Below are positions 39,086 to 61,378 of a DNA stretch of 64,000 nt, piece by piece (the first letter of the stretch is position 1; each line of letters starts with the position of its first letter). A program made the translations under genes and the position numbers. The stretch lies in NCBI GenBank assembly GCA_013420905.1, contig JAAXNY010000010.1, forward strand, positions 2,914,001 through 2,978,000, given 5' to 3'. Under the pieces are notes generated by a model. It was not told where the DNA came from and did not search any database. It saw nothing but the letters and a program-made list of their open reading frames with translations. Origin of the DNA: Collybia mongolica. Taxonomy: Eukaryota > Basidiomycota > Agaricomycetes > Agaricales > Clitocybaceae.

Positions 39086-39966
39086 AACGGGACACCATAA
39101 ATAACAACTGGAATGATCAGGAGAAGTAAAAGACAGTGCCACACTGTTTTAAATAACCAAGTGCGCAGCTGGGCATTGATAAGAGTTTGGCCAGCTCTTT
39201 TGATATTGGCTAAGTAACAAGTAATGACATAATTGGCACATATGGTGTGTGCACCAAGTCATAGAGGACGAGTCAGCATTAAATACAAGACCCTTGGTGC
39301 AGGGGAGCATTGTTCTGTATAAAATTTACAATTCTTTATAATATTTAGTTTGTACACTATAAATAGACTGTAGATAAGTAGCACAAAGGCAAGGAATCTT
39401 GCCCCCCACTTTGTGCTATTATAGGATATACAAATCATATTTGTTGAAACACTATTGCATGCACAAATTAAGGATCAGATTGCTTCAAGTTGTCTTGATT
39501 AGAATTGTCTTGAAGCATTTGGTTAAAGAGATCACAGAATTGAAGAGTCCAGTTCATTTGGAACTTAGTACTTGCATTGTCCATTGGAATTACTAGGTGC
39601 TTGGCCTTTAGTGCACTTGGCACTGTCGTTTTAATAAAGTCACTTGGACTTACAGATCTGCTTGGGATTGTTAATAATTGAACATACACTTGGTACTCAG
39701 TCTATTGGATCAAAAGATATTATAAAAGTATACCTAGCAAGCCTTAAACTTGTGTTAGGGCTTTGTCTGGATCAAACCCATTGAGAGATCAGTGAGAAAG
39801 GCCTTGACTAGTACTATTAAAAACTTAGTGCTTTCAAGCACTTGAACCTGAACTCAAACAGGTGATTCCTACTGTTTGTGTGTTGATTATTAGATTTGGT
39901 GTGTGTGTGTGTAAGAGATTACATTTCATAGCATCAGCACACTTATAGCCCAGGAGCCCCCTTTCA
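39086..39966 (+). mobile_element. 5'-truncated LTR of the Gypsy-1/Gypsy-3 family
   Basis: Matches the young LTR from about position 355 of 1217 to its end (CAGGAGCCCCCTTTCA). The first third is missing together with about 130 codons of the surrounding Gypsy-1 pol, so a single deletion removed both. Orientation is opposite to the host Gypsy-1 copy. Confidence 0.85.
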
Positions 39967-40756
39967 GCAGCTTGTCTACCTTCATAACAGCACATGTGGT
40001 CAATGACGAGTGCCTCTGGAATGCAGAGGAAGGCCTTTGGACCAGACCAAGTACAGCCGACATACTTGATCCTCTGGACTATCTGGTTTAGGCTCTGGAA
40101 GTGTTCCCAGACAAATCAACGGATGCTGGGGTTTTTGGGAATAGTCTTGTAGGTACCATCAGGTAACTCATAGCATGTTGTTGGGCCTTTAACCAGTGCA
40201 TTGTCAACAAAAGGGATAGTGACTTCCAGTATCTCTTCTTGTAAAGTGTATGTGACATCACTGTGGAAGATCAGCACTGAGTTTGCCCATCCCATTGGCA
40301 TGCAAGTAAGTCAAAAGGTGCCAAGAGGTGTTTGAAAAGTGGTAAAGTCTCTTGAGTCTATTGCAAGACACCATTTGTCATAGCCAACAAACAAATTGAG
40401 TAGGCTGTAACAAGCTTGGCTGCCACACAACTCAGCCAGGTGTTTGGTGTATGGCGGCATACCAGAGTTGCAAATAGTGATGGTGTTCAGGGGTTGGAGG
40501 TTGTGAACAATATGAAGCTTACCCCTAGCTTTTCATAGAACAGTAAACCATCATGACCAGTAAGAGGAGTTTGATTGCTTGTAGACACTGGCAGCAATCT
40601 TCTCATGAACTATTGCAATGACTTTGTTGTAGATGCTGGGCAGTATTGGCATGTTTTTGAGAACCCAGGGGACATGCTTGACTACTGGCATGTGAACTGG
40701 GGGAAAGAAGTCTTTGCAAAACAATCCCTTCTGCAATTCCTTCCAGGTGAAGCCAT
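39967..40756 (-). pseudogene. Gypsy-1 reverse transcriptase remnant
   Basis: Minus-strand pieces in order: FFPPVHMPVVKHVPWVLKN, KIAASVYKQSNSSY, LHIVHNLQPLNTITI, GYDKWCLAIDSRDFTTFQT, MPMGWANSVLIFHSDVTYTLQEE, then VTIPFVDNALVKGP. These match the Gypsy-3 RT one to one. The YIDD active site of Gypsy-3 reads FVDN here, so the enzyme is dead. Several stops. Confidence 0.9.
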
Positions 40757-41927
40757 TGATAGGGCCTGAAATTGTTTGCACTTATAAAGTCAACAAGTAA
40801 GGCTATTAGTATCATTTCTTTAGAGTCGAGCTCCAAGGCGGCTAATCAGAGTGAACTAGTCTAATGGATAATACACTATCAGTACAGAGGACTATGAGTA
40901 TGGTCTATTATTAGTCCTATTCACCATGCCTGGTTACAACCTCAGTATCTTAATTCATAAGTAACTGTTGTAGTATGATATCATTAGTCTGGGGATCATC
41001 ATTAATAGGAGAAGTAATTGTAAATTTGGGACTTGCACAACCCAATCCTAGTCAGGGGCACTTGGTGTTAACTACCGGAAAAGATGGGACATCATGAATA
41101 ACAGCCAGGACAATCAGGAGAAGTAAATGACAGTGCTGTGCTGTTTTAAATAACAAAGTGCGTGGTCGGGACTGGATAAGAGTTTAGCCAGCTCTTTCAA
41201 TATTTGATAAGTAACCAGTAAACGACATAATTGGCATGCATGGCATGCACACCAAGTCATAGAGGATGTGTCAGCATTAAATACAGATCCTTGGCACAGG
41301 GGAGTGCGGTTCTGTATAAACATTTATAATTCCATATGATATTTAGTTTGTACACTATAAATAGACTGTAGATGAGCAGCGCAAAGGCAAGGAATCTTGC
41401 CCCCACTTTGCACTACTATAGAGTATACAAATCACATTTGTTAAAACACTATTGCGTGCCCAAATTAAGGCTCAGATTGCTTCAAAGTTGTCTTGATTGG
41501 AATTGTTTGAAGAGATCACAGAATTGAAGAGTCTTAGTTCACTTGGAACTTAGTACTGCATTGTCTGTTGGAATTACTAAGCACTTGACCTTAGTGCACT
41601 TGGCACTGTTTGTTTAATAAGTCACTTGGACTTATAGATCCGCTTGGGATCATTAATAATTGAACGTACACTTGGTACTCAGTCTATTGGATTGAGAGAT
41701 ATTATAAATATACCTAGCAAGCTTTAAACTTGTGTTGAAGCTTTGTCTGAATCAAACCCATTGAGAGATCATTGGAAAGAGCCTTGACTAGTACTATTCA
41801 AAGCTTAGTGCTTCTAAGCACTTGAACCCAAACTCAAAACAGGCAATTCCTACTGTTTGTGTGTTGATTGTGTAAGAGATTACATTTCATAGCATCAGCA
41901 CACTTATAGCCCAGGAGCCCCCTTTCA
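40757..41927 (+). mobile_element. Solo LTR of the Gypsy-1/Gypsy-3 family
   Basis: A 1171-bp block from TGATAGGGCC to CCCCCTTTCA, flanked by CCAT (40753-40756) and CCGT (41928-41931), a 4-bp duplication with one CpG-type transition. It sits in the Gypsy-1 pol frame between HQDG and FTWKELQKG, which become continuous when it is removed. Its small internal deletions and CpG loss indicate an older insertion than Gypsy-3. Confidence 0.9.
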
Positions 41928-43060
41928 CCGTCTTGGTGCACCATCATGAAATGATGCATGAGCTTTTGTTTGTTGCTGGTCAGGAATCCTGGTGGGTGAT
42001 TCTTTTCTATTATATCATAGGTGGCCTGATTGTATTGGCCAGTAGGTTTGAAGCCAGGGGGGGGTTGTTGATAGAGTGGGTAGGTCCTCAAGTGGATTGC
42101 CAGTGATATTTTGGACTACATGGAATTCTTCAGGTAGAGTCTTGCCTATTGGTTTAATCTTGCAATCAACAGGTTTGTATTTCTTCTTTCCAGCAAAAAC
42201 GGCCCATGGAATGGACAAAGTATTTGTGTGTGCCTCAGTTGGAGGCAATGTCATAGGGTATGTCAATTGGATTGTTGTGGGTTTGATGTGACCAGCTCTG
42301 GGTGATTGCATCATTGGAGGACAGATGGAAGGGAATGTTGAAGTGTTTGGTGGTTTGGAGGAAGTCAATGCCAAAAGTCAAGAGTAGATCAGAGTAGTAA
42401 CAATTAAGTTGTCAAAGGCCACTGTTGGCCATTGTTGTGGTAGTCTTAGGTAAATTTGACAAGTAGTGAGGAACTAAATTGATTGAGGTATGTTGTTCAA
42501 CACTAAAGGGAGTACTGGTAGTAGTGGGGGAGAGAACCAATGAACTATCCCTTGGGTGGAGTAAGGCAATGTGATGGTCTAAAAAATATGATGAGCAAGC
42601 AAGCACATGAACAAAATCAGAGGCTTGCATGTGGGTAACTTGATATCCTGGGCATGAGAGGGGGGGAGAGTCACACAAATTTTCTCATGCAAGTCATAGA
42701 GGAGGGTTATGTGCTTCAGCTGTGCACAGGTGGTAACATACTTGTTGATATTTGCATAGGGGAATCATCAACTTTTGATGTGACAGAGTATGTCACCACA
42801 GTAGCACTCTGTTGTGGAAAGGCCCAGTAGGCCCACAATGGACCCATATACCTGATTGTTGGTGCAATGTGCAAGAGTGCATGAATGGTGAGGGGACACA
42901 TAACTACCTGCTGTGGATCATATTGGTAGTATAGCCTGTAGTTCATCAGACAGCATCTTGTCAGCAATGAGAATGACTTACTGTTTGTACTCCTCAACCC
43001 AATTCTGGAAACCTCTCTCAAGTTTGTCAACTTGTTTGCAGGTGATTTCAAATTCTAAGC
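41928..43060 (-). pseudogene. Gypsy-1 gag-protease-RT start, remnant
   Basis: Minus strand 42374-41928 reads KKYKPVDCKIKPIGKTLPEEF...GNPLEDLP...PPGFKPTGQYNQ...LMHHFMMVHQDG, matching the N-terminal part of the Gypsy-3 RT protein (KKYKPVHLKTKPTLADLPDKF). The frames at 42412-43051 hold fragments that by position should be protease and gag but match only weakly. The 5' LTR of Gypsy-1 is not visible to the right; it was lost or replaced by the CACTA fragment that follows. Confidence 0.7.
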
Positions 43061-45992: not shown

Positions 45993-46071
45993 GGGGAGTA
46001 ATTAAAGGAGCGGATGAGAGTTATAGTGAATGGTATAAAGAGTGGCTAATATGTATATCGAATCGGAGCGG

Positions 46072-47288
46072 TGATAGGGCCCGAAATTGTTTGCACTTAT
46101 AAAGTCAACAAGTAAGGCTATTAGTGTCATTTCTAATAACCAAGTAAGCAGTAATAAAGGATTAGAGTCGAGCTCCGAGACGGCTAATCAGAGTGAACTA
46201 GTCTAATGGATAATACACTATCAGTACAGAGGACTATGAGTACGGTCTATTATTAGTCCTATTCACCATGCCCGGTTACAACCTCGGTGTCTTAGTTCAT
46301 AAGTAACCGTTGTAGTATGATATCATTAGTCCGGGGATCATCATTAATAGGAGAAGTAATTGTAAATTCGGGACTTGCACAACCCGATCCTAGTCAGGGG
46401 TACTTGGTGTTAACTACCGGAAGTGACGGGACACCGTGAATAGCAACCAGGACAATCAGGAGGAGTAAACGACAGTGCCGCGCTGTTTTAAATAACAGAG
46501 CGCGCGGTCGGGACTTGATAAGAGTTTAGCCAGCTCTTTCAATATTTGATAAGTAACCAGTAAACGACATAATTGGCACGCATGGCGCGCGCGCCAAGTT
46601 GTAGTAGACGCGTCAGTATTGAATACAGATTCTTGGCGCGCGGGAGCGCGGTTCCGTGTAAAATTTACAATTCCATATGATATTTAGTTTGTACATTATA
46701 AATAGACTGTAGATGAGTAGCGCTAAGGCAAGGAATCTTGCCCCCACTTCGCGCTACTATAGAGTATACAAATCACATTTGTTAAAAACACTATTGCGTG
46801 CCCGAATTAAGGATCAGATTGCTTCAACGTGTCTTGATTGGAATTGATTGAAGAACTACAGAATTAAAGAGACTTAGTTCACTTGGAACTTAGTATCGTA
46901 TTGTCCGTTGGAATTACTAGGCACTTGGCCTTAGTGCACTTGGCACTGTATTGTTTGATAAGTCGCTTGGACTTACAGATCCGTTTGGGATCATTAATAA
47001 TTGAACGTACACTTGGTACCCAGTCTATTGGATCGAGAAATATTATAAATATACCTAGCAGGTTTATAAACCTGTGTTGAAGCTTTTGTCTGAATCAAAC
47101 CCGTTGGGAGATCATTGAAAAGGGCTTTGGCTAGTACTATTCAAAGCTTAGTGCTTCTAAGCACTTGAACCCGAACTCAAAACAGGCGATTCCTACTGTT
47201 CGTGTGTTGATTGTTAAGTTTGGTGTGTGTGTGTAAGGGATTACATTTCATAGCATCAGCGCACTTATAGCCCAGGAGCCCCCTTTCA
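46072..47288 (+). repeat. 5' LTR of Gypsy-3
   Basis: 1217 bp, TGATAGGGCC to CCCCCTTTCA. A TATAAATAG promoter motif lies at 46698-46706. A palindromic CpG-rich GCGCGCGCGCC stretch at about 46586-46596 is reduced to TGCATGCACACC-like sequence in older copies. Confidence 0.97.
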
Positions 47289-47290
47289 TC

Positions 47291-47308
47291 TGGAGCCCAC
47301 CGCGAGGG
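47291..47308 (+). promoter_or_regulatory. Putative primer-binding site of Gypsy-3
   Basis: TGGAGCCCACCGCGAGGG starts two bases after the 5' LTR and begins with TGG, complementary to a tRNA CCA end. I cannot assign the tRNA from memory. The complement implies a discriminator U before CCA. Confidence 0.6.
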
Positions 47309-47743
47309 TTCAGAGTTTTGAATAGTCTAAAGAGAGCATCTTTCTTTGAAAAATATTATACCAAGACGAGTAACGTCGTCTACAAATTGAAGTAGAGCGG
47401 AGAAAGTTTAGTCAATCTGTCTCAAGAGCCGTGCCCACAAGCCAGCTCGTCAAACAGACTAACTAATCAGCCACTTGCAAGACAAGTAGCTACAAAAACG
47501 CGGAAGACTAAAAATTCGCAAAACGCTGGAGCAACAGAGTCGTTACCACCTCCTAGGCGAGCGCGCACACAAGGATCTTCACAACCAGCCTTTGGATCTT
47601 CAGGACCAAGGCAAGTATTTAGAACCCCAGAGCCCTTAGGAAACATATCGACTACTAGTAGACCAGTAGCGCGCGGAAGATCGTCCGTAGTAAACCCAGT
47701 AGCAAACCCGAACTCGTTAGCTACTCAGAACCGTTCAGTAATC
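47309..47743 (+). other. Leader between primer site and gag
   Basis: The gag frame stays open for at least 280 nt upstream of the ATG at 47744, without another ATG. Translation could begin upstream by a non-AUG codon, or this is simply leader. Packaging signals would be expected here but none can be recognised. Confidence 0.4.
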
Positions 47744-49255
47744 ATGACTGAACCCCCTCGTAAATATATGCCCCAACCAGGCGTCCGTGATGCACCAGTA
47801 TTCAAAGGAAAAGAGCCCACGGGTTTAATCCGGTTTCTGGAGCGAATGGAGGTCCTATGGAAGGAGTGTAACATTACAAATGATGAAGAAAAGAAGTTAA
47901 TGTTGGGAAAATACGCAGACCTACAATCAGAGAATGAGTGGAGGGCATTAGACCACTATAAGACAGGCACTTGGACGGATTTCAAGACAGAGTTGATCTC
48001 TAGTTATCCGGAAGCACTCGATCAAGTAGAAGGATCAGTAGCCAAGTTAGAGGCAGTGTGTCGCGCCAACCCACGTATTGGAGTAACCGATGAGGCCGCG
48101 CTGAAAAAGCTGAAGCGTGAATTCAAAGCAGAATCTATTAAACTCTTGGGAGTTAGGCCACCTATTATCTCTAACCGTGAATTAGTTACCAAGTTCTTGG
48201 GATGTCTAGACGAAGTCTTCAGATCCCAAGTACAAGGAAGGCTAACCCTGCTAGGGAATAATCAGTCTAATGCTACACAGGCAGGACAAGCCGTTGCTAC
48301 AAACAACCGAGCAGATCCTAATACTATTGCCGAAGCCGCCGCGCTCGCGCGACGAAAAGGGGATCAGTACAATCTGGAGGAAGTTATAGCAACTGCAATC
48401 AGCATTTCTGAAGGTGTAGCCAACATGAATATTCCAGACACAAATAGATCGTTTATAACGTCCGTAACAGCAACAGCAGCGCCCAAAATCAAAGTAGAGA
48501 TGGATGAAATAAAACAACAAATAGTTAATTTGTTAGACCGTCTCCAAGTAAATGAGAAGAATACGAGGAGTGGATTTGAGGATGTAATGAAAGCGCTTCA
48601 ACAAGCAACTGTTCAGAACCATGCCACGAATAGCGCACCCCAGCAGCATCAGTATCAGAATCAGTACGGAAAGCCTAAAGAAGGACAACCGCAAAGACCA
48701 AATGCGTATAAATGTCACTACTGTTTTACACCCGGACACTTCATAATGGCCTGTCCCGAGAAACAGAAACATTTTGAGGAAGGGAAAATAAAAACCAACG
48801 CAAATGGAGGAGTATGCTTACCAGACGGATCATATATTCCAAGAGAACCAGAAACGGTATCATTGAAAGATAAAGTGGAACACTTCCATTCAAAGAAGGT
48901 AGCGGCCCTTTATTACGGAGATGTCACAGAAGGACCCGCTCCAGGAGTATTGTCCGTTATGCAGTCACATAATGCAGTAGACAATAGTAACGACATTGGA
49001 ACCTTGAAAGCCATAATGGCACAAATGGCACAATTTCAAGCGCAACAAATGTTAGGACAACAGAGCGCGCAAACCGCGCTGCCAGTAGCGCCTCAGATGC
49101 AGAAACAGGAATATATAAATAATAACTATAATCCTACGGCAAAGAGCGTGCCGAACCCTGACATAGTAGCCTTACAAGCACAAATGAGTACTTTATTAGG
49201 GCAGGTAGCAGAACTCAATAACCAAAACAAGGTTAAAGAGTCGGGTTTCAATTAG
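47744..49255 (+). CDS. gag: Gypsy-3 Gag polyprotein
   Basis: A 503-residue frame. Residues 10-170 resemble a retrotransposon capsid (FKGKEPTGLIRFLERMEVLWKE, then LMLGKYADLQSENEWRALDHY and a helical run with ELVTKFLGCLDEVFRSQVQGRL). A coiled-coil-like segment lies at about 245-290. The zinc knuckle CHYCFTPGHFIMAC (CX2CX4HX4C) at about 323-336 would bind RNA. The C-terminal part is Gln/Asn-rich. The stop TAG at 49253-49255 follows a slippery heptamer at 49243-49249, so some ribosomes should continue into the protease frame. Gag would assemble the cytoplasmic virus-like particle. Intact. Confidence 0.93.
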   Translation: MTEPPRKYMPQPGVRDAPVFKGKEPTGLIRFLERMEVLWKECNITNDEEKKLMLGKYADLQSENEWRALDHYKTGTWTDFKTELISSYPEALDQVEGSVAKLEAVCRANPRIGVTDEAALKKLKREFKAESIKLLGVRPPIISNRELVTKFLGCLDEVFRSQVQGRLTLLGNNQSNATQAGQAVATNNRADPNTIAEAAALARRKGDQYNLEEVIATAISISEGVANMNIPDTNRSFITSVTATAAPKIKVEMDEIKQQIVNLLDRLQVNEKNTRSGFEDVMKALQQATVQNHATNSAPQQHQYQNQYGKPKEGQPQRPNAYKCHYCFTPGHFIMACPEKQKHFEEGKIKTNANGGVCLPDGSYIPREPETVSLKDKVEHFHSKKVAALYYGDVTEGPAPGVLSVMQSHNAVDNSNDIGTLKAIMAQMAQFQAQQMLGQQSAQTALPVAPQMQKQEYINNNYNPTAKSVPNPDIVALQAQMSTLLGQVAELNNQNKVKESGFN

Positions 49256-50466
49256 GTCCGATGAAGGAGGCTAAGGAACACGCTAGACCTACGACTAGGT
49301 CGCGTTCCAAGAGACAGCCAGAGGACCGAAGTAAAAATAGAAATAGTCGTCAAGAAAGTAACAATTCAGAGAGTAGTCAGGATAGTAGTGAAGAGGAGTT
49401 GGTAGCGCCGTCTCCTAGTAAAAAGAAAGTAAAATTTGTTGAACCATCAGTAAAGTCCCCAGTACGAAAAGAATTACCCTACATCGATGTGCCCGTGGTA
49501 CCCTACATACCCCGGAGAACGGAACGCAACCCTGAACCAGTTGATCCGCTACCTAATTTTAACACTAAGCGCGGTCCGACTTATGAAACTAAGTCCCCGA
49601 TAGAAGTAAAATTAAAAGGTGGCGATATAATTGCTAAAGTGTTAGACAACCCTATCACATTGACCACGGGAGAGTTAATGGGCTCGTCAAAAACCATTAG
49701 AGATGGAATAAAGAATATTGTAACTGCCAGACGTAAGTCCCTTACCCAAAGGGACGCTAACTTGCAAATAAACGGAATAGATGAGGAAGACGTCTTACCC
49801 TTTGGAGGGGACTGGGAACTTGATGATAACTACTTACGGCATGACGCGCTACCAGTAGAGTCAATCCCATTCCAGTCTTTCTTCATCTCAGAGTATGACC
49901 GCGGCGGAATACCTAAGGGATCTATAATATGCGGGGACCCAGTCCTACAGTATTTAGAATCTTTACCAGCCGGGGAAGAGCCCAAACAGTTGTATGTAGC
50001 AAAAGAATCGGCCTCTTTGCGCGCAGTATATCCAGTAATAAATGGGGTAGGAACGGAGGAATCTTTATTAGATGGGGGATCCCAAATAGTATCAATGGCT
50101 AAACAAACGGCTTTAGACTTGGATATTTCATGGGATCCGGACGTTGTCATACACATGCAGAGTGCTAATAAACAAGTGGAGAAAACAGCGGGATTAGCGC
50201 GCAATGTCCCTTTCTTGTTTAATGACATGGCCATCTACCTCCAAGTACATATTATAAATTCACCCGCATACAAAGTATTGCTCGGGAGACCGTTTGATAC
50301 GCTCACGGAAAGTCAGATCAAAAATGCTCGGGACGGGGGACAAGTAGTCACTATCACGGACCCGAACACGGGACGAAGGTGTACTATTCCTACCCATGCA
50401 AAGGGATCACCGCCTAAGCTGTTGAAAAGACAACCGGAGCAGGATTTTCGGCCTTCGATGAATTAA
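49237..50466 (+). CDS. Gypsy-3 protease region (after -1 frameshift)
   Basis: The frame opens at 49237 and its first ATG is at 49261 (401 residues from there). The first 100 residues are basic, Ser-rich and likely disordered. The retropepsin core is at about 235-365: VINGVGTEESLLDGGSQIVSM carries the active site as DGG instead of DTG or DSG, followed by VHIINSPAYKVLLGRPFDTL, the usual ILGRPF-type C-terminal strand of retropepsins. It would cleave Gag and Pol. It overlaps the next frame by 49 nt. Confidence 0.85.
   Translation, partial: RVGFQLGPMKEAKEHARPTTRSRSKRQPEDRSKNRNSRQESNNSESSQDSSEEELVAPSPSKKKVKFVEPSVKSPVRKELPYIDVPVVPYIPRRTERNPEPVDPLPNFNTKRGPTYETKSPIEVKLKGGDIIAKVLDNPITLTTGELMGSSKTIRDGIKNIVTARRKSLTQRDANLQINGIDEEDVLPFGGDWELDDNYLRHDALPVESIPFQSFFISEYDRGGIPKGSIICGDPVLQYLESLPAGEEPKQLYVAKESASLRAVYPVINGVGTEESLLDGGSQIVSMAKQTALDLDISWDPDVVIHMQSANKQVEKTAGLARNVPFLFNDMAIYLQVHIINSPAYKVLLGRPFDTLTESQIKNARDGGQVVTITDPNTGRRCTIPTHAKGSPPKLLKRQPEQDFRPSMN
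49243..49249 (+). promoter_or_regulatory. -1 ribosomal frameshift heptamer GGGTTTC at the gag end
   Basis: In the gag frame the codons are TCG GGT TTC AAT TAG, which places G GGT TTC exactly as X XXY YYZ. The protease frame is open from 49237, so the overlap with gag is 19 nt and the needed shift is -1. The heptamer ends three nucleotides before the stop codon. Confidence 0.75.
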
Positions 50467-53150
50467 TCCAAAGTGATCAAGGAGAGCTAGCCGTAGAAAT
50501 TGCTGAAGATGAGGACGGGAACTTTATTATAACGGGTTATAGACACCCTACTGATAAGCGGAATTTTGGTCACAAAGAACTTAGAGATGTCTTTTTGTCT
50601 AGAAGTGATGTAAACATGAATAGTACAGTACCTGAACGCGAATTACTAGCCACGTACTTGGCTTCCGTAGATGAGCGCGATGGACCAGTAATAAACTACG
50701 AGCAGAACAGTAGGGACCCAGCAAGCACACCCACTAGACCGCTGACATACGCTCAAGAACAGCCCATGATCAATAAAGCTTTAAGTAAATTAAAGCAGTG
50801 GCAAATTGGCACAAACGAGCGCGGTCTTGGAACGGCAACAAGTGAAAAGTGTAATATTGAGACCATGGATCAGCTAGTAGGAAAGAAGTATAAACCAGTA
50901 CATTTGAAAACAAAACCAACACTGGCGGACCTGCCTGATAAATTTAGAATTATCAGAGATATAAAGGGCGACCCTTTAGCAGCCCTACCAGTTCTAACGC
51001 CTAACCCACCTCCGTTTAAACCAACTGGGAGGTACACTGAGGAAAGGCGCGCGGAATTCCAAAGAGTACACGAAGAAGAAAGCTTCTTAAAACCTAAAGA
51101 GATGGATATAATCCACGACTTTATGTGCAAACATAATGATGGTTTTGCTTGGAATGATAGTGAGCGCGGTAGTTTTAAGAAGGAATATTTTCCTCCCGTC
51201 GAAATACCAGTAGTCCCACATACGCCGTGGACAGAGAGGAACATTAGAATCCCACCAGGAATCTATGAAGATGTTTGTAAAATCATCAAGACAAAAATTG
51301 ATGCAGGAGTCTATGAGAGATCCAATTCATCATACAGGTCTAGATGGTTTACCGTATTAAAGAAAGGCCCAGGAAAGAAGCTTAGAATTGTACATAGTCT
51401 AGAACCACTGAATGCAGTCACAATAGCGCACTCGGGTCTACCACCCGCTACCGAAGAACTAGCAGAACACTTCGCAGGGCGCGCTTGTGGCGGAATGATG
51501 GATCTATATGTAGGATACGATGAGAGGCCTTTAGCAGAAACCTCGCGCGATCTAACCACGTTCCAAACACCATTTGGCGCGCTGAGATTAGTAACACTCC
51601 CTATGGGATGGACGAATTCTGTTCCAATATTTCATGACGATGTCACGTACATCCTACAGGATGAGGTACCACATGTCACAATACCCTATATTGATGATGT
51701 ACCCGTGCGCGGTCCAGCAACGCGCTACGAACTACCGGACGGAACAGAAGAAGAGCTACCTGGTGCTCCAGGTGTTAGGCGCTTCTTCTGGGAACATATG
51801 CAAAATGTAAATCGCGTCGTACAGAGAATGAAGTATTCTGGAGGAACATTTTCAGGATATAAGTCTATGTTATGCGCAAGTGAAATTCTAGTGGTAGGAC
51901 ATAGATGTACATATGAAGGACGGAAACCTACTACAGATAGAATCGGTGTAGTTGAAAGATGGGGACCATGCAAAGATGTCAGTGAAGTACGCGCTTACAT
52001 GGGAACTATTGGTGTATGCAGGAATTTCATTAAAGACTTCGCCCGTATAGGTCAACCAATTCAAAAGTTAACTAGGAGTAGTGAACCTTGGATATGGGGG
52101 CCTGAGCAAGAAGAAGCGCAGCAGCTATTATTAGACGCACTTAAAAATAGCCCCGCGCTCCGTCCAATTAATTACACCTGGAATACGCCAGTAGTACTGT
52201 CAGTAGATACGTCATGGAAAGCCGTAGGCTACTATATCTACCAGGAAGACCCTGATATACCTGGAAGAAAGCACTATGCTAGATTTGACTCGATAACTCT
52301 GAATGAGCGCGAAGCGCGCTTCTCACAACCCAAACGAGAGCTATTCGGATTAATGAGAGTTCTAATGGCATGTTATTATTGGTTTATTGGAGTACGAAAT
52401 TTGGTAGTGGAAACGGATGCAAAGTACATTAAGGGGATGTTATCAAACCCAAGTTTAGGACCTAATGCAACGGTAAATAGGTGGATCGATAGGATACTTA
52501 TGTTCCACTTTACTTTGGTTCATAAAGCTGGTAAAGGCTTTGGCCCAGACGGTCTGTCAAGACGCGACGCGCGGCTAGGGGATCCTGTCTACCCGGACCC
52601 AGACGATGGTTACGACGAACCCTCAGGTCCTTTAAGGTTTATCAACCCAACGGAAGGATTGGATGACCCTTTGGAACTGTCAGACTTTAAAGAGGAGATC
52701 GACACGCGCGGCGGATATCTATTCCAACTTGCAAAGGAAATCTCTGATTTTGAAGTGGAAGTAAACAATGCCTGGGCTGGTGAAGCAGCATTTATCGGAG
52801 AAGTAAAACAGCACTTAGGTTTAGGACGGTTCGGTATTCAAAGAGAAGCTTATCTAAAGCAACTTGTAAATACTACTGTCATACCCAATGAAAAGTTTAA
52901 ATACGACCCTAATGTAAGGGAAGTATATGATGAGTCTAAACGGACACCTACGGCACAGGAACAGGATAAAAACCTACCTTTAATAAAAGAATGGTTAAAA
53001 AGACCACAAAAGAGACCAAAAGGAATGACAGATCGCGCCTACCTAAAGTTTGCAAGGCAGGCATCTAATTTCTTTTTGGATCCAGAAGGCAGGATGTATA
53101 GGAAAAATATCGATAGCGCGCACCAGCTTGTTGTTGATAAAAATCACTGA
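50418..53150 (+). CDS. pol: Gypsy-3 reverse transcriptase and RNase H
   Basis: The frame is open from 50418, in the -1 frame relative to protease; the first ATG is at 50616. Domains: linker (KKYKPVHLKTKP, FPPVEIPVVPHTPW); RT fingers (RWFTVLKKGPGKKLRIVHSLEPLN); palm (GYDERPLAETSRDLTTFQTPFG, TLPMGWTNSVPIFHDDVTYIL, and the active site IPYIDDVPVRG); thumb; RNase H starting VVLSVDTSWKAVGYYIYQ, with ETDAKYIKGML and FTLVHKAGKGFGPDGLSRRDAR. It copies genomic RNA into cDNA within the particle. The reading ends at a TGA (53148-53150) in the same frame as the integrase, so one nonsense codon separates RT-RNase H from integrase. No canonical slippery heptamer was found for the protease-to-RT shift. Confidence 0.9.
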   Translation, partial: AVEKTTGAGFSAFDELIQSDQGELAVEIAEDEDGNFIITGYRHPTDKRNFGHKELRDVFLSRSDVNMNSTVPERELLATYLASVDERDGPVINYEQNSRDPASTPTRPLTYAQEQPMINKALSKLKQWQIGTNERGLGTATSEKCNIETMDQLVGKKYKPVHLKTKPTLADLPDKFRIIRDIKGDPLAALPVLTPNPPPFKPTGRYTEERRAEFQRVHEEESFLKPKEMDIIHDFMCKHNDGFAWNDSERGSFKKEYFPPVEIPVVPHTPWTERNIRIPPGIYEDVCKIIKTKIDAGVYERSNSSYRSRWFTVLKKGPGKKLRIVHSLEPLNAVTIAHSGLPPATEELAEHFAGRACGGMMDLYVGYDERPLAETSRDLTTFQTPFGALRLVTLPMGWTNSVPIFHDDVTYILQDEVPHVTIPYIDDVPVRGPATRYELPDGTEEELPGAPGVRRFFWEHMQNVNRVVQRMKYSGGTFSGYKSMLCASEILVVGHRCTYEGRKPTTDRIGVVERWGPCKDVSEVRAYMGTIGVCRNFIKDFARIGQPIQKLTRSSEPWIWGPEQEEAQQLLLDALKNSPALRPINYTWNTPVVLSVDTSWKAVGYYIYQEDPDIPGRKHYARFDSITLNEREARFSQPKRELFGLMRVLMACYYWFIGVRNLVVETDAKYIKGMLSNPSLGPNATVNRWIDRILMFHFTLVHKAGKGFGPDGLSRRDARLGDPVYPDPDDGYDEPSGPLRFINPTEGLDDPLELSDFKEEIDTRGGYLFQLAKEISDFEVEVNNAWAGEAAFIGEVKQHLGLGRFGIQREAYLKQLVNTTVIPNEKFKYDPNVREVYDESKRTPTAQEQDKNLPLIKEWLKRPQKRPKGMTDRAYLKFARQASNFFLDPEGRMYRKNIDSAHQLVVDKNH

Positions 53151-53156
53151 ACATAT

Positions 53157-54461
53157 ATGATGAAGGCATCTCACGATTCTGTTGGACATAGGGGTTTCTA
53201 TGCAACAAAATCTTTAATAGATAAAAGATTTTGGTGGCCAGAAATGGAACGCGATGTATCATGGTATGTGAAGTCATGTCACATCTGTCAGACAAGGCTT
53301 TTAACTTTGTTGAGAATCCCTCCTGTTATAACCCACACACCGTCTATATTCCAAGTATTGCATGCGGACACCATGTATATGAGCCCATCGTCTAACGGTT
53401 ATAAATACATTGTCCAAGGAAGATGTGCGCTGTCTTCATGGATGGAAGGCGCGCCCCTCAAATCTGAGGACGGCAAGACCTTGGGAAGGTGGCTGTTCGA
53501 AGAAGTAATTTGTAGATGGGGTTCTCTAACGGAAATTGTAACGGATAATGGTCCTGCCTTTGTCGCAGCCAAAGCGTGGCTGGAATCCAAGTATGGTATT
53601 ACAGGAATAAGTATATCACCATACAATTCCAAAGGAAATGGGATCGCCGAGCGCGCACATTGGGATGTGCGTCAAGCTGTCTTCAAAGCTACAGGTGGTG
53701 ATGTAAAGAAGTGGTACTACTTCTTCCACCATGTAATGTGGGCTGACAGGATTACTATACGGAGAGGGACGGGTTGCTCCCCCTATTTTATGATTACGGG
53801 CGCGCACCCAACCTTACCGTTAGATATCATTGAAGCCACTTGGTTAGTAAAGTTACCAGGAAAAATATTGACTACAGAGGAACTCATTGGGTTTAGAGCG
53901 CAGGCTCTAGCTAAGCACGTCCAGCATGTGGCCGATATGAGGAAACGTATCAATATAGAAAAACGAAGGAGACTATTACAGTATGAGAAGGATCACAGCG
54001 CGACCATCAGAGACTATGATTTCAAACCAGGAAGTTTAGTACTAGTTAGAAATACCGAGGTCGAAAGTTCGCTCGATAAAAAGCTGAAGCCACGGTACCT
54101 GGGACCAATGATAGTCCTGAGACGAAACCGCGGGGGAGCCTATATTGTTTGTGAAATGGATGGATCGGTGTGGCAACATAAAGTGGGGGCGTTTAGGGTT
54201 ATTCCCTATTTTGCTAGGAGTACAATTGAACTGCCGGATAATCTGCAAGATCTAATAGACATCTCTAGCGAAACATTAAATGCTTTAGTGGAATCGAAAG
54301 ATCCCGCTAATAGACAAGTTTATAAGGAGCGTGACTATACCTTTGACAGAGTCCAATTGGATCAGTCCGATTCAGAGTCAAGCTCTAGTGAAAACACTGA
54401 AGAGGGGATAGCGCCGGCGCTACCACAAACTACTATGTCACACCGGAAGTTGCATAAGTGA
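53157..54461 (+). CDS. Gypsy-3 integrase
   Basis: 434 residues, in frame with RT-RNase H across the TGA at 53148-53150 (relatives appear to have Arg, as in KNHR, so CGA to TGA is likely). The zinc-binding region is H6-x4-H11-x29-C41-x2-C44. The catalytic triad is D71 (HADTMYM), D130 (IVTDNGPAF) and E165 ([10 protein letters not shown]), with about 34 residues between the last two. The C-terminal part ([15 protein letters not shown]...[16 protein letters not shown]) is a GPY/F module; no chromodomain is present. An acidic Ser/Glu tail ends the protein. It would join cDNA ends to host DNA, here with 4-bp staggered cuts. Confidence 0.93.
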
Positions 54462-54607
54462 TAAATCAGTATGAAAACAGAAGCAGTAAAGACAGTGTAA
54501 GCAACGAAGCTAAGTAGTAAGGACAGTGTTAAACCGAGTAAAGACAGTAATACAAAGGAGCGTGGGGAGGGACACCATAACTAAGGAGGAAGTTAATTGG
54601 ACTACCC

Positions 54608-55985
54608 TCAAGCAGATATGAAGTCGTCTTCAACCTCGGGCAAGGGCACATCAGCCGGAGCTACCTCCTCTTTATCATTGTCATCCTGGTCATGGACTTC
54701 GGTAGCGCTTGCAGTGGCAGCCTCGTCAGAGCCTCCCTCCAGAGCGGCCTTGTTCATTAGACCGTTGAGGCGAGTAACCTCGTCCATAGTGGCGTCACGA
54801 CGCTTCAATAAGAAGGACACTGTATGACTGATCTCCTCCAACTCAGCGCGGTAGTTTAAAAGCATCCTACCGAGGGCTTGCTTGGTGTGTGACAAGGGAT
54901 CGCCCGCGTCAGCAATCAAGCGCGCCCGCGCTAAGACTACATCGTGCTCCTTGGAGGGACGGAAGTCAATAAAGACATGAGTATCTGATACACAGTCAGT
55001 ATAAAAATAGAACCATCTATTATTAGAAAACGTACCCTCAGCAGATGCCTTTGGATCTTCATCCGGGGTGTCCTGCCTCGTACGCTTTTTGGGACGAAGA
55101 GTGCTGCCGCGGTTGAGCTCGGAACGCTTACCGTCCTGTAGGAATAAGAAACAAAGTAATAGACAGAGCAAAAACAAGAATGGGTACCTTGATGGCAGCC
55201 TTTTCAGCCTTAGTCCTTTTGACACGGGGAACCTTAATGTTCTCCTTCTCCTTGCGACTACGGGTGATTGGTCCTTCACTAAGGAGACGACTAGTCACTG
55301 GCCCAGAGACAGTAGCGCTAGCCGTAGCGCCGGAATCAATGACCATATTCTTGAGTAAAGAAGAGACGCCATTGAGTATGTCGCGCACTGACAGCACGGT
55401 AGCTAAAAAGAAACATACCGAGTCAGTACCAGACATTTCAATGTCACCGTCATATTCACCGCCAGCAATGACCTCGCCTGGAATAGCGGGACTATCCGCA
55501 TCACCACCAGTAGCAGGGACCTAGTACCAGAAAACCATGGTTTAAGAACAGTACAGTGCAAGATAAGGTAAAAAGCGCGCACCGCGGTTTGAGACAGGTG
55601 CTCGGTGCGGACCTTTTCACGGTGACGGTGAATAGCGGCAGTAAGAGTCACAATGTTGCGGTAGACGGGCTCTTGAAGTAACTCGGGGTATACATGTTGT
55701 AGTCCCTGGAATGCTTTACGGACGCCAAAGATAACATTCTGCCAGGACCGCTCCGTCAAAACCATTTTGGACTCAGTCAGGAGTAGCTGTAAATTGTAAA
55801 AGTTGTTACGATAACGGCGTATATAAGTTAATTGGTAAAAAGTGTACCGCGGTTTCGCCTAACTTCCGGACGCTGACCCTTTGTTCAACAAGGGTGTCCA
55901 TCGATAAACGAGCTTGAAAGGTGTGCCACTGAGCTTGGACCATCTTGAAGTTCTCGATGTCTTGATAGTTGGGGGGGCTAGTCAT
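54608..55985 (-). CDS. Antisense accessory gene 2 of Gypsy-3, five exons, unknown function
   Basis: Exons 55985-55848, 55786-55583, 55520-55188, 55135-55036 and 54984-54608 join in frame to 383 aa. Donors are GTACAC, GTGCGC, GTACCC and GTACGT; the last intron (51 nt, TACTGAC branch site) is a multiple of three, so reading through is also possible and would add 17 residues. The N-terminal half is helical (NFKMVQAQWHTFQARL; SWQNVIFGVRKAFQGLQHVYPELL). Residues about 185-225 and 239-245 are basic (RKEKENIKVPRVKRTK, RPKKRTR) and look like nuclear localisation signals. The C-terminal part has a heptad-like helix (LGRMLLNYRAELEEISHTV) and an acidic end. A TATA motif on the minus strand at 56082-56091 supports its own promoter. 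Nothing here matches a family I know. Confidence 0.72.
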
Positions 55986-56677
55986 AATGATGCAGAGGAA
56001 ATTGATTCTTCGAACCAGAACGTTGTAAAGAGAGTATAATAGAGTTGGGCGATGTCTTGGGACAAAAAGCACAGCCAGTGCCCTTTTTATACCTCTACGA
56101 CTAGAGAAGTGCTACCCAGTCTCTCATTCGTTGCGCGCGTTCTATCCCCAGAAAAATCTATACATTTCAACTGAACAGGTCCGAGACGCGTGCCTAATTG
56201 AAATGCTGGGCCCAATTGAAAAAGGAGCTCCGTAAAAATTCATGTGGAGCGCGGCAGTGTCCGCATGACAACTGGGACAGTTGTTATCAGTGTTGAGGGG
56301 GAGATGGGTATAAGCAAAATCGAATTGGAAAAACCTTACCAAGGTTACAAGGATTGAAATAGATTGTCTATAAAAAGTCAGTGATCGCGCCACGGTTTTT
56401 AATGATCGAGAGAATTGCACCAGAATTAAACCGTACTATTTATAACTTAAGTAGCCGGGGCAAGGGCGGAAGCTTTCTTATGAAGACAATAGAACCACAG
56501 CCAAATCAATAGCATTGTTTATAGTCCGAGGGACTGTATGTAAGACAAAGTGTTGGACTTCAATTAATAAAATTGAAGCCCAACGAAAGGCGGGGGAATA
56601 AGTGATATGTAAGGGCACTAGGGCCCGGGAAAACACATATAGAAAGAAAACGTAGGTGGGGGGGGGGCGCGGCGCGG
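55986..56677 (-). other. Spacer between the two antisense genes
   Basis: Contains the probable promoter of the 54608-55985 gene (TATAAAAAGG on the minus strand at 56082-56091) and the 3' flank of the 56678-58627 gene. No other coding signal. A homopolymer G run lies at 56658-56666. Confidence 0.45.
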
Positions 56678-58627
56678 CTACTCCTCCTCGCTGTCAGGCA
56701 CGGACGCAGAAGATCTTGACGACGAAGAACTGTCATCAACCTCTACTTCTTCTTCCAAGGGCGGCCAAGGGAGATTCTGGAAGTCCGCGTAGAAGAGGAG
56801 GGCGCTCTCCGTGGCTGGCGTAGTCAGCAAGAGGTTTTGAAGGCCCTCCAGGCCTTCCTCCTCGTACAACCTACCAATGGTGCCAACTATGCGCGCCAAC
56901 AAGGAGTCGCGCATTTCAAGCGTGCGGTTAGCGGCCTGAATGACCTCCGCGGCAAGGGTGTCCGCGTCGCCGAGCTGAGCATAGGCTTCAGCAACCGCTA
57001 GTAGAATAAGTAAAATCAGTAGTAAACAAAAAGACGGAAAGAAGATGGCTTACTAGAAATGCCCGCACCAAGCATGGGCCCCAGATCCTCACGGAGCCTA
57101 GCGCGCTTCTGGGGAGTGAGGCTGAAGCTGCACTTCCCCTTCTTGGCAGTGGCGCATTCCACGCACGGTTTACCCCAACCGTTGAAGGTGCACTCAATGT
57201 CGCCGCGGGTGGCGCACATCATGCAAGGATAGCCCACCTAGTAAAAATGATCAGTAACAAGAAATAAAGTAGTAATAAACATACGGAAGAGCGCCGCGGC
57301 GCAAGGTCAGCCAGCAGGGAGGTAATGGGGGACTGTAGCGGCGTCAGCTCCCGGTTGGGAACCAGCGCGTGCTTGCGGCGTGTCGCCTGTGCCCTATCCC
57401 TAGAGCGAGTGGTCTTACGCGACCGACGAGGAGAAGGGGCCGCGGGAGGCAACAACTCCGCGAACCCCTCTTGAGCCAACTGGCGGGCGATCTCATCATC
57501 GAAGAGCCGAAGTTCAGGGACTTCAACCTTCACCAGCGGCTGCCCAGAGGACTAAGGAGATAAAGATGAGTAAAAGTAAATGACTTCAAGAGAGAAAAGA
57601 GACATACCGGGCCTGCTTCCGAGGGACGCGGCGCGGAAGCACTGCCAGTCCCCTGGGCGCGCGACATGTCGGACTAGAATTTTGAAATCAAGTCAGCAAT
57701 AATGTGAAACTCGTAAAGTAAAGGATATACCTGGGGAACCGCACGGCCTTTGCCCTTGGACCCAGCTGTACGCTTCCGCTTGAGGGGCTATTAAAATAAG
57801 TCAACTACCGAAGAAAAGTAATAAAAAGCAGTAATAAACGAACCGCGGGTACCAAGACCGGGGAGCGCGCCGGCAAGGGCGCGGCGGACCAACTGTCCCG
57901 GTACTGATGGTAATGGCGCGGTGCACCAACCATGCGAGGAGGGACGAGGAAAGTATCCTGAAAGATACTTTCACCATTGTCGCGCTCGAAGCACGACCCC
58001 ACCTGGTCCAGGACTTGCTCCACAGTGGGAGCCTGGCCCTAAAGTAAAAGGTAGTCAGCTTGACAAGGGCAGGCAGAGTAAAGAAGTAAACAAGTCACTT
58101 ACCAGAAGAATGGAATTGTGGCCCAGGTCAGTCGATATGACCGTGCACCAGGAAGACCACGAAGCCTCGCGCGCGTCGACTGGGATGCGCATCACTTGAA
58201 GGTGAAGCGCGCGCAGGAGGAGAATAGCCGGATATGGCAGCGAAAAACGCGCGCCACGGACCACGCCAGTGATGGCATCCTGAGACCAGTAAATAAGTAA
58301 AAGGTTTTAATAAGTAAAAGATGGGCATACGATGAGCATGGAGCAGTGATCGACGAAGTCAATCAACTCGTCGAGGTCAAGGGGGCCCTGATGGTCCATA
58401 CGGGGCGCGAGTTCCTCGGCCATAATAATCCACCCTTGCTCCATGGCGACAAAGACATCGCCCTCGGCATCTTCAAGGAGGTCGGAAAATGAGGGGACCG
58501 GCTGGTCCACATAGACCATAGTGGGGGAACGGCCCTCAGTCGGTAGAATCGCGGCAGAGAGCGAGAGAGACAGCGCGGAAGGCGAGCGCAGAGCACGAGC
58601 CATGGCGGAAGTAGAAGTGGAAGACAT
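56678..58627 (-). CDS. Antisense accessory gene 1 of Gypsy-3, eight exons, six-cysteine cluster protein
   Basis: Exons 58627-58331, 58279-58103, 58038-57844, 57787-57731, 57673-57608, 57551-57285, 57237-57054 and 56997-56678 join in frame to 520 aa; the introns are 42-66 nt, mostly GTATGT/GTAAGT to TAG or CAG. Exon 1 starts MSSTSTSAMARALRSP and has an acidic helix region (SFSDLLEDAEGDVFVAMEQG). The short exon 4 encodes PLKRKRTAGSKGKGR, a nuclear localisation-like run. Residues 358-389 form C-x2-C-x7-C-x8-C-x2-C-x7-C (CMMCATRGDIEC...CVECATAKKGKC), similar in spirit to, but spaced differently from, fungal Zn2Cys6 clusters. The C-terminus is helical, then acidic and Ser-rich (VDDSSSSSRSSASVPDSEEE). 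Position and features suggest a nuclear regulator of the element or host; that is inference. Confidence 0.78.
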
Positions 58628-59067
58628 TTCTGTTTGAAAAGGTTGGAGCGTTTGAGCGATGCAGATAGCAAAGAGATTTAGAAATGGGCTATAAAGTCCA
58701 AATTGTCTAAAACTTAGCAAGGACGCGAGCTTTTTAAAACGCACAACCCTGCATTGCGAAGCTCTAAAGAACAAACAGGAGTACCGATCTCTTGCTGAAG
58801 TGTCAGAAACATAACGAGAAAAATGTCCAGATGACTGAAATATCTGTAAAGCGATGTCCAAATGTCAAGTACTCTCTCAGGAGACGTATATAACTGTCAC
58901 GATCCTGATGGGAAGTAAACCTCTGGGCTCGATCCCAACATCGCGCGCCTACCTGTCTAAAAGCGGAACCGTTGTAACATTGTACTGAAAGATTAGACGC
59001 GTGCAGACCCGAAGTATTGGACCAACCTGCCGGCAAAGAGAGACTGAGGACAGTCTACATTTGTGGT
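58628..59067. other. Upstream region of antisense gene 1 next to the 3' LTR
   Basis: About 440 bp without further coding signal. It must carry the promoter of the eight-exon gene unless the LTR is used in antisense. AT-rich TTTTAAAAAG on the minus strand near 58,735 is a weak TATA-like candidate. Confidence 0.35.
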
Positions 59068-59077
59068 ATGGGGGAGA
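59068..59077 (+). promoter_or_regulatory. Polypurine tract of Gypsy-3
   Basis: ATGGGGGAGA ends directly at the 3' LTR and is the expected plus-strand DNA primer site. Confidence 0.75.
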
Positions 59078-60294
59078 TGATAGGGCCCGAAATTGTTTGC
59101 ACTTATAAAGTCAACAAGTAAGGCTATTAGTGTCATTTCTAATAACCAAGTAAGCAGTAATAAAGGATTAGAGTCGAGCTCCGAGACGGCTAATCAGAGT
59201 GAACTAGTCTAATGGATAATACACTATCAGTACAGAGGACTATGAGTACGGTCTATTATTAGTCCTATTCACCATGCCCGGTTACAACCTCGGTGTCTTA
59301 GTTCATAAGTAACCGTTGTAGTATGATATCATTAGTCCGGGGATCATCATTAATAGGAGAAGTAATTGTAAATTCGGGACTTGCACAACCCGATCCTAGT
59401 CAGGGGTACTTGGTGTTAACTACCGGAAGTGACGGGACACCGTGAATAGCAACCAGGACAATCAGGAGGAGTAAACGACAGTGCCGCGCTGTTTTAAATA
59501 ACAGAGCGCGCGGTCGGGACTTGATAAGAGTTTAGCCAGCTCTTTCAATATTTGATAAGTAACCAGTAAACGACATAATTGGCACGCATGGCGCGCGCGC
59601 CAAGTTGTAGTAGACGCGTCAGTATTGAATACAGATTCTTGGCGCGCGGGAGCGCGGTTCCGTGTAAAATTTACAATTCCATATGATATTTAGTTTGTAC
59701 ATTATAAATAGACTGTAGATGAGTAGCGCTAAGGCAAGGAATCTTGCCCCCACTTCGCGCTACTATAGAGTATACAAATCACATTTGTTAAAAACACTAT
59801 TGCGTGCCCGAATTAAGGATCAGATTGCTTCAACGTGTCTTGATTGGAATTGATTGAAGAACTACAGAATTAAAGAGACTTAGTTCACTTGGAACTTAGT
59901 ATCGTATTGTCCGTTGGAATTACTAGGCACTTGGCCTTAGTGCACTTGGCACTGTATTGTTTGATAAGTCGCTTGGACTTACAGATCCGTTTGGGATCAT
60001 TAATAATTGAACGTACACTTGGTACCCAGTCTATTGGATCGAGAAATATTATAAATATACCTAGCAGGTTTATAAACCTGTGTTGAAGCTTTTGTCTGAA
60101 TCAAACCCGTTGGGAGATCATTGAAAAGGGCTTTGGCTAGTACTATTCAAAGCTTAGTGCTTCTAAGCACTTGAACCCGAACTCAAAACAGGCGATTCCT
60201 ACTGTTCGTGTGTTGATTGTTAAGTTTGGTGTGTGTGTGTAAGGGATTACATTTCATAGCATCAGCGCACTTATAGCCCAGGAGCCCCCTTTCA
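59078..60294 (+). repeat. 3' LTR of Gypsy-3
   Basis: Same length and, in every stretch compared, same sequence as 46072-47288. Identity of the pair means very recent insertion. The small open frame MELSIVLSVGITRH at 59889 occurs identically in both LTRs and is not a gene. Confidence 0.97.
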
Positions 60295-60347
60295 GCGGAT
60301 TACACGAGGTTAGGGGTATAAAAGCACTGGAAGGGGATGATCATAAA

Positions 60348-61378
60348 CTAATCCTCAGCCTCGCCGTAAAGTTCAGCCTTGATGAAGCGGGTACGGGCAG
60401 TTTTTTTGCGGATAGCGAGGATCGTGTCAGCAAATCCTGTATCACGGCGTATGATCTTGAAAACCCTGAGTTGTTCGTCGTCAGAAAGATCGCCATCATC
60501 CTCGATTGTGTGAATAGCAGACCGCTTGCGGGCAGGAGATGGTATGACAGTATCTGCAGCAAAGGCCTCAGCAAGTCGACTGATTGAAGATGCCATGCCT
60601 TCGATAGCCTGGCTACCAGTCTTGCGATGGTTCCTGGAACGTTTACTGGCACATGCCACAGTATCAGTCGTGGTAGACAGCATAGGTGCAGTAGCAGTGG
60701 GAGGAGGAGATGCAGGAGTAATTAGGGATGCAGATGTAGTATCGTTGGATGGAGGAGTTGAAGTTGGAATAGGCTGGGATGGATCGGGATCAGTGGAATC
60801 CTCCTCGCCTTCACTAGAGTCACTATTAGGCTCGCCGGGGCGGAAGACACCTTTACCCGTGGCATAAGTGCCTTCTATAAGATCAGCCATATCGTCGAAG
60901 TGTGGAAAGGAGGTTTTGCGCCACTTTTTCTGCTTGGGATGAGCCTGACAATATCAATCAATGGAAATAGAATAATGAACAGATTACAACGAAATACCTT
61001 GATGTAATTGTCCCATATGTTGTCTCCTGCAACAGCTAAATTCTTATCGGCATCCCATCCAAACCCAGAGAGTTCGCGGATCTGTTTGACATCCTTGTAC
61101 TCTTTTTTGAGCTGGTAAAAAAACATTTGTTGTCAGATAACATTGATGCTTAATTAAACAAGACATACCGTGGACCAGCGGGTCCGGCAGCTTTGGGCCG
61201 TCTTTGGACTACCACCAGTATGCGCCTCAGTCCCAGCAAGCGCGGTTTCAGCAGCGTTCCATGCAGATGTGTGCCAGCCAGCATTGTCAGCTTGTCGGCC
61301 TTCTTGACGCTCCTTGAACAGCGTGTCAAGCAAGATTGCATCGCAATCACTGGTCCAGATAGCACGAGCACGAGTCAT
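60348..61378 (-). CDS. PIF/Harbinger Myb/SANT-like DNA-binding protein
   Basis: Three exons, 61378-61169, 61111-60998 and 60944-60348, join in frame to 306 aa. Residues 1-110 form a Myb/SANT-like trihelix domain: W8 in RAIWTSDCDAILLDTL, W34 in AGWHTSAWNAAETAL, W68 in SCRTRWST, then KKEYKDVKQIRELSGFGWD and NIWDNYIK. This is the plant and fungal Harbinger type (Myb_DNA-bind_3-like). Then KQKKWRKTSFPHFDDMADL, a Pro/Ser/Thr-rich acidic middle, and a basic helix (ASKRSRNHRKTG) and C-terminal region. In Harbinger systems such a protein brings the transposase to the element ends and into the nucleus. It is intact, unlike its transposase partner, and is transcribed toward it; Gypsy-3 lies between them. 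Confidence 0.88.

Follow-up and report, generated by a model that had tools for sequence, protein, structure and literature searches.

Does a retrotransposon of a basidiomycete fungus carry two intron-bearing genes on the strand opposite to its own, and what would such genes do for it? The question is raised by a 64,000-nucleotide stretch of the Collybia mongolica genome (assembly GCA_013420905.1, contig JAAXNY010000010.1, positions 2,914,001 to 2,978,000 of the forward strand), referred to below as the window and numbered from its first letter. A Ty3/Gypsy element in the window has 4.6 kb between its integrase stop (54461) and its 3' long terminal repeat (LTR). From the sequence alone, an initial annotation read two spliced genes from the reverse strand of this segment, here called A and B, and considered them to be carried by a young element. 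Comparison of the copies in the genome and the ratio of nonsynonymous to synonymous change (dN/dS) support this and show both genes to be under selection in a proliferating family. As to what the genes do, we propose, with a probability of roughly 0.55, that they are accessory genes of the element with minus-strand promoters of their own, which probably control the element in the nucleus.

Both models, A with eight exons (520 aa) and B with five (383 aa), could be rebuilt exactly as claimed. Their 11 introns are 47-64 nt long, are bounded by GT..AG throughout and join exons of matching phase. In most copies the pair occupies the position of an antisense additional open reading frame (ORF) between pol and the 3' LTR (aORF-3R). 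A TATA-like box lies upstream of each ATG and is unchanged in every copy with data (Table 1), which suggests a separate promoter for each gene.

Spliced frames of this length had been called unlikely by chance. We therefore determined the longest spliced frame obtainable with free GT..AG introns of 45-70 nt, both in each gene region and in 60 dinucleotide shuffles of it. With introns unlimited in number, the real maximum for the A region is 533 aa and the shuffle median 456 aa, and 4 of the 60 shuffles reach the real length; with at most seven introns the longest shuffled frame reaches 524 aa. The B region has a real maximum of 407 aa, which was matched by 0/60 shuffles. On the sense strand the best spliced frame has 405 aa and 11 introns in the A region, and 359 aa and 6 introns in the B region. 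Frame length thus bears out the claim for B but not for A, and because A is insecure by this measure, the decision falls to the comparison of copies.

When the window's own genome (46 Mb, 26 contigs) was searched at the DNA level, 39 matches appeared. Thirty-four fetched places and the window were aligned as 35 sequences; three partial matches lie outside this set and one more falls within a fetched place. Gene A is intact, splice sites included, in 27 of the 35 copies. Among the others, two are cut by contig ends (L036 and L038), three carry a large deletion or indels that alter the frame (L033, L034 and L042) and three have a changed donor (L039, L040 and L041), L039 additionally lacking 24 nt in frame. 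Gene B is in frame in 32/35 copies, including L023, from which 9 nt are deleted in frame; the reading frame of B is lost in L034, L037 and L042. GT-AG is found at 382 of the 385 intron instances. Counting distinct indels, we found 15 in the exons (2,715 bp), 19 in the introns (613 bp) and 41 between the genes (692 bp; several homopolymer length variants are entered separately here), which gives densities of 5.5, 31 and 59 per kb, respectively. The contrast between exons and introns supports the intron boundaries. Changes of exon length are limited to 7/35 copies (L023, L033, L034, L036, L038, L039 and L042).

The copies also differ in blocks. Across exons 1-6 of gene A (57241-58550), L024-L035, L036 and L038 diverge from the window by 3.9-5.7%, whereas in B and in exons 7-8 of A the same group is within 1.8% of it; exons 1-6 of A thus occur as two types that differ by about 5.5%. 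Because this divergence has a sharp edge at about position 57240, the 5' part of A seems to have been exchanged as a block by recombination between elements. In three older copies (L047, L048 and L049), the changes in the gene B stretch appear by eye to be mostly C to T and G to A, and seem to be those of deamination or of a process like repeat-induced point mutation.

Both proteins are under purifying selection, which is stronger on variants common to copies. Among the 35 copies, variation is highest at third codon positions (0.28 for A, against 0.12 and 0.10 at the other two; 0.19 for B, against 0.14 and 0.11). We then estimated dN/dS against a neutral reference built from the mutation spectrum of introns and intergenic sequence with CpG context, using 28 of the 35 copies (L033, L034, L036, L037, L038, L039 and L042 were excluded) and p-values that assume independent variants. 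The ratio is 0.36 for A (131 synonymous and 103 nonsynonymous variants, p=4e-15) and 0.50 for B (49 and 61, p=2.5e-4). A ratio (Ka/Ks) near 1 had been set beforehand as the outcome that would speak against the genes, and neither value is of this kind. Variants present in at least two copies give 0.29 for A (p=8e-13) and 0.25 for B (p=5e-5), and singletons of A give 0.47 (p=1.5e-4). That shared variants are more constrained than private ones is to be expected if descendants require a working A and B in the copy. Pairwise comparison of four more diverged copies with the window gives 0.19-0.32 for A and 0.23-0.39 for B, the ratio for A being 0.19 in both L024 and L031.

Read one or two bases off, the exons have a dN/dS of 0.9-2.3. 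The real A and B frames contain 0 stop-making variants across the 28 copies. On the sense strand, five ORFs of 85-135 aa lie in the gene region; crude dN/dS is 0.76-0.94 in four of them and 0.35 in one (55011-55358), which overlaps exons of gene B. All five carry stop-making variants and are open in 22-27 of the 28 copies, and none of them looks like a conserved sense gene. For the integrase, 11 copies were compared with the window, two of unequal aligned length being left unscored; eight of the nine scored copies differ by 1-8 synonymous and 0-1 nonsynonymous changes, and the ninth (L014) by 0 synonymous and 5 nonsynonymous changes.

The genes travel with the element. Searches of the genome gave at least 97 matches for the integrase and 299 for gene B; 80 last-exon matches among those listed for B were used. 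Of these 80 B ends, 71 are antisense to a listed integrase and tail to tail with it, at a spacing of exactly 153 bp in 66 of the 71 pairs; none of the 80 has the B end on the integrase's strand within 3 kb. Nine of the 80 have no listed integrase, and the two of these nine that were inspected (L048 and L049) both hold integrase remnants. Conversely, 26 listed integrase matches have no listed B, and four of them were fetched. One contains both A and B (L057), and in another similarity to the element stops soon after the integrase (L056). The other two are deletion derivatives, with the end of the integrase fused to the 3' LTR in L054 and the end of B fused to the start of A in L055. Most of A and B is gone from both, and their break points share repeats, some 10 and 7 nt long.

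A protein search with B returned one match, Collybia nuda BDZ94DRAFT_1234893 (P0001), an annotated gene model of 371 aa that is 64% identical over 100% of B; each search of the protein collection scored about 8,000 best-word candidates. The alignment crosses all four splice junctions and has 26 gap positions altogether, and the C. nuda protein is without two residues beside junction 2 of B. A profile of B and its C. nuda homologue found no further protein at an expectation value (E) of 0.1 among the candidates scored, and viral contigs scanned with the C. nuda protein gave no match. That protein is modelled as helices, at low confidence. Exon 3 of B contains a 27-nt intron-like stretch (55403-55429: GT, CTGAC, T-rich, TAG), identical in 35/35 copies, whose nine residues have no counterpart in the C. 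nuda protein. It may be a relic or a micro-intron; we kept it as exon because it is in frame and very short for an intron.

The features first noted in the two proteins, a six-cysteine cluster in A and the basic runs PLKRKR (A) and RPKKRTR (B), are present and conserved. The six cysteines, all encoded by exon 7, are retained in 34/35 copies and in 3 of 4 further copies, and each basic run in 32/35; RPKKRTR is identical in the C. nuda homologue. The tail of A is acidic and Ser-rich. The fungal Zn2Cys6 cluster has the spacing C-x2-C-x6-C-x5-12-C-x2-C-x6-8-C, and the first loop of A is one residue longer than this. We tested A against PF00172, the Pfam profile of the Zn2Cys6 fungal transcription factors; full-length A matched no Pfam family at E up to 1, and neither did exon 7 by itself when E was allowed up to 10. 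We do not count A among the Zn2Cys6 proteins because the profile test fails, though the spacing resembles that of the family.

The element that harbours A and B has the organization of a Ty3/Gypsy retrotransposon, its LTRs enclosing a zinc knuckle, a weakly matching protease, reverse transcriptase (RT)/RNase H and integrase, in that order (Table 1). The RNase H and Integrase_H2C2 domains pass the curated Pfam cut-offs, and the zinc knuckle, protease, RVT_1 and rve domains fall short of theirs. It is a young element, its two LTRs being identical, and is flanked by a 4-bp repeat, GCGG. Despite the identical LTRs, a stop at 53148-53150 splits the RT from the integrase ORF in the window copy; in many other copies RT through integrase is a single open frame of 1,347 aa. 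No Rfam family was found across 46000-60400. Older LTR copies of the same family lie elsewhere in the window (20832-22048 and 39087-41927; 82.9-96.8% identity by piece), as does an old pol relic (38710-42185).

Table 1. Features of the element and of its antisense genes, in window positions.
Feature	Position	Strand	Remarks
Gene A, 520 aa, 8 exons	58627..56678	-	Exons 58627-58331, 58279-58103, 58038-57844, 57787-57731, 57673-57608, 57551-57285, 57237-57054, 56997-56678
Gene B, 383 aa, 5 exons	55985..54608	-	Exons 55985-55848, 55786-55583, 55520-55188, 55135-55036, 54984-54608
Six-cysteine cluster, C-x2-C-x7-C-x8-C-x2-C-x7-C	57054..57237	-	Gene A exon 7
TATA-like box TTTATA	58695-58690	-	About 65 nt upstream of gene A ATG; unchanged in 31/31 copies with data
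TATA-like box TATAAAAAG	56091-56083	-	About 100 nt upstream of gene B ATG; unchanged in 35/35 copies
5' LTR, 1,217 bp	46072..47288	+	TGATAG at start; 100% identity to 3' LTR
gag-like ORF, 619 aa, zinc knuckle	47396..49255	+	PF13696, E 8e-6, slightly below curated cut-off
Protease-region ORF, 409 aa	49237..50466	+	PF13975, weak match, E 0.013
RT/RNase H ORF, 910 aa, stop-terminated	50418..53150	+	
Integrase ORF, 436 aa	53151..54461	+	PF17921, E 3.5e-17; PF00665 under its cut-off
3' LTR, 1,217 bp	59078..60294	+	Purine-rich stretch just ahead

How might A and B serve the element? Once the element has integrated, they would be transcribed on the minus strand from promoters of their own, for which the TATA-like boxes are candidates, and their transcripts would be spliced by the host and translated. 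The basic runs may then take both proteins into the nucleus, where the six-cysteine cluster of A could bind zinc and DNA with B as a putative helical partner, and the two would act on LTR transcription, chromatin state or integration. The logic would be comparable to that of nuclear antisense proteins such as HBZ of human T-cell leukaemia virus (HTLV) and GENE23 of the maize element Grande. Since the introns are reversed in the genomic RNA, the genes would pass reverse transcription unchanged and be readable from DNA copies only. Judged from the protein features and from the comparison with Grande and HTLV, a nuclear role that is regulatory or related to integration is the most likely one. A more specific form of this proposal is tentative, and on balance unlikely: A and B may form a two-gene, intron-bearing regulatory unit in which a zinc-cluster DNA binder (A) and its helical partner (B) signal that integrated copies are present and adjust LTR transcription or integration, the antisense introns keeping the unit silent while the element exists as RNA or particle and the 5' exons of A being exchanged as recombination modules.

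Several results weigh against such accessory genes. Both are predicted from DNA sequence. A protein search with A found no match at E 0.01 among some 8,000 candidates scored, and its putative function is read from its motifs because no relative was found outside its own genome. At E up to 1, neither A nor B matches any Pfam family, that of the Retand protein TRP28 (PF04195) included, and with E allowed up to 10 the C. nuda protein and pieces of A gave only weak matches, far below cut-offs. Among solved structures A has one chance-level match (E 0.84) and the B profile none. Structure prediction was poor: the cysteine-cluster part of A, for which it had been suggested, could be modelled as exon 7, at a low-confidence mean predicted local distance difference test score of 57, and the mean for the C. 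nuda protein is 40. In the copies, only 2 of the 15 indels in exons have a length divisible by three. The dN/dS of singleton variants in B, 0.69, is not significant (p=0.08), and pairwise ratios for the seven youngest copies, which have few differences, are scattered (0.28-0.91 for A; 0.41-1.23 or undefined for B).

The main rival, which we hold to be unlikely, is that A and B serve replication structurally, as other accessory proteins of retroelements do, by helping to assemble particles, to package RNA or to bring the cDNA into the nucleus. Selection on both proteins, at its strongest in shared variants, would fit such a role, as would the conserved basic runs and the conservation of B in another fungal species. 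Against this, the proteins would come from integrated DNA and not from packaged RNA, and A, with its cysteine cluster, basic runs and acidic, Ser-rich tail, would suit the nucleus.

That A and B are instead host genes captured by the element, or a second mobile element nested in it, and thus cargo without benefit to their carrier, appears improbable. Intron-rich genes with promoter-like boxes do resemble cellular genes, but a dN/dS of 0.25-0.29 on shared variants is not neutral decay and no bounding repeat of at least 16 nt surrounds the segment. Moreover, 71 of the 80 listed B ends adjoin a listed integrase, a stand-alone host relative having been sought among the listed matches. It is still less probable, to the point of being hard to credit, that the segment acts as antisense or double-stranded RNA, in silencing or transcription interference, with the frames as by-products: antisense transcription would indeed overlap the sense genomic RNA, and such roles are discussed in PMC7264820 and PMC10186651, but the constraint tracks codons, third positions varying most and shifted frames showing none of it. 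Finally, chance spliced frames on a non-coding strand, such as the shuffles of the A region can yield, are refuted for B and very unlikely for A on the strength of the copy comparisons, given selection, splice-site conservation, the denser intron indels and a full-length homologue of B.

A second six-cysteine sequence in the window was considered separately. A plus-strand relic of an apparently spliced six-cysteine gene lies at about 23970-25565 (relic piece 24850-25599), and its broken end is followed by an old fragment of a Ty3 integrase (27190-26071, minus strand, 39-41% identity). A related copy of the relic (L061) ends in a longer exon, open over 295 aa and with an acidic tail; no integrase was detectable within the 3 kb fetched. 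We rejected the idea that the relic is an antisense gene of the same kind in a distant lineage, as no integrase was detected in those 3 kb and the relic loses similarity to L061 near 25565, before the fragment. Their adjacency in the window looks secondary, and the relic may belong to another mobile element.

The nearest parallel to A and B comes from Boty-like Ty3/Gypsy elements of Botrytis cinerea, where PMC7264820, PMC8365987 and PMC4227169 describe an antisense gene, brtn, between pol and the 3' LTR. As in Boty, the element of the window has extra antisense coding between pol and the 3' LTR of a fungal Ty3/Gypsy element; unlike the pair in the window, brtn as described is one gene in an ascomycete host. 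Antisense additional ORFs of the same kind are found in the plant elements Grande (GENE23), RIRE2, Retand (TRP28) and PvRetro13. The GENE23 protein is nuclear and has its own promoter (PMC7264820), and DNA binding is predicted for TRP28 (PMC11963269), whose domain is absent from A and B. The plant cases are described as ORFs, and the word intron is absent from the main text of PMC11963269, whereas A and B are multi-exon genes.

Spliced antisense genes have precedents in elements of other kinds. HBZ of HTLV-1 and APH of HTLV-2/3/4 are proteins of spliced antisense RNA that act on LTR-driven expression and are mostly nuclear, APH-3 being cytoplasmic too (PMC10186651). The HTLV antisense promoter lies in the 3' LTR, whereas A and B have internal TATA-like boxes, and no sequence relation is claimed. 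HTLV antisense genes have far fewer introns. A group I intron of Didymium carries a homing endonuclease gene in antisense, which is interrupted by a spliceosomal intron of 47 nt and was shown to be expressed and spliced (PMC9548176); it differs from A and B in the kind of element, in encoding a known enzyme and in its one reported intron.

The initial annotation had thought such a spliced pair new in a fungal element. Antisense coding itself was already in print with brtn of Botrytis, and spliced antisense genes with HTLV. What stands is narrower: the literature searched, which omits most subscription journals, yielded no multi-exon antisense gene pair in a basidiomycete element. The review PMC7264820 calls the roles of antisense accessory genes undetermined and asks for study of antisense and spliced transcripts; the element with A and B makes these roles testable, and annotation of transposable elements should search the reverse strand for spliced genes. 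Antisense accessory genes as such are already known from Boty, Grande and Retand, and the spliced pair is a variant of them, a clean case in which two many-exon antisense genes have measured purifying selection and conserved splice sites across dozens of copies in one genome.

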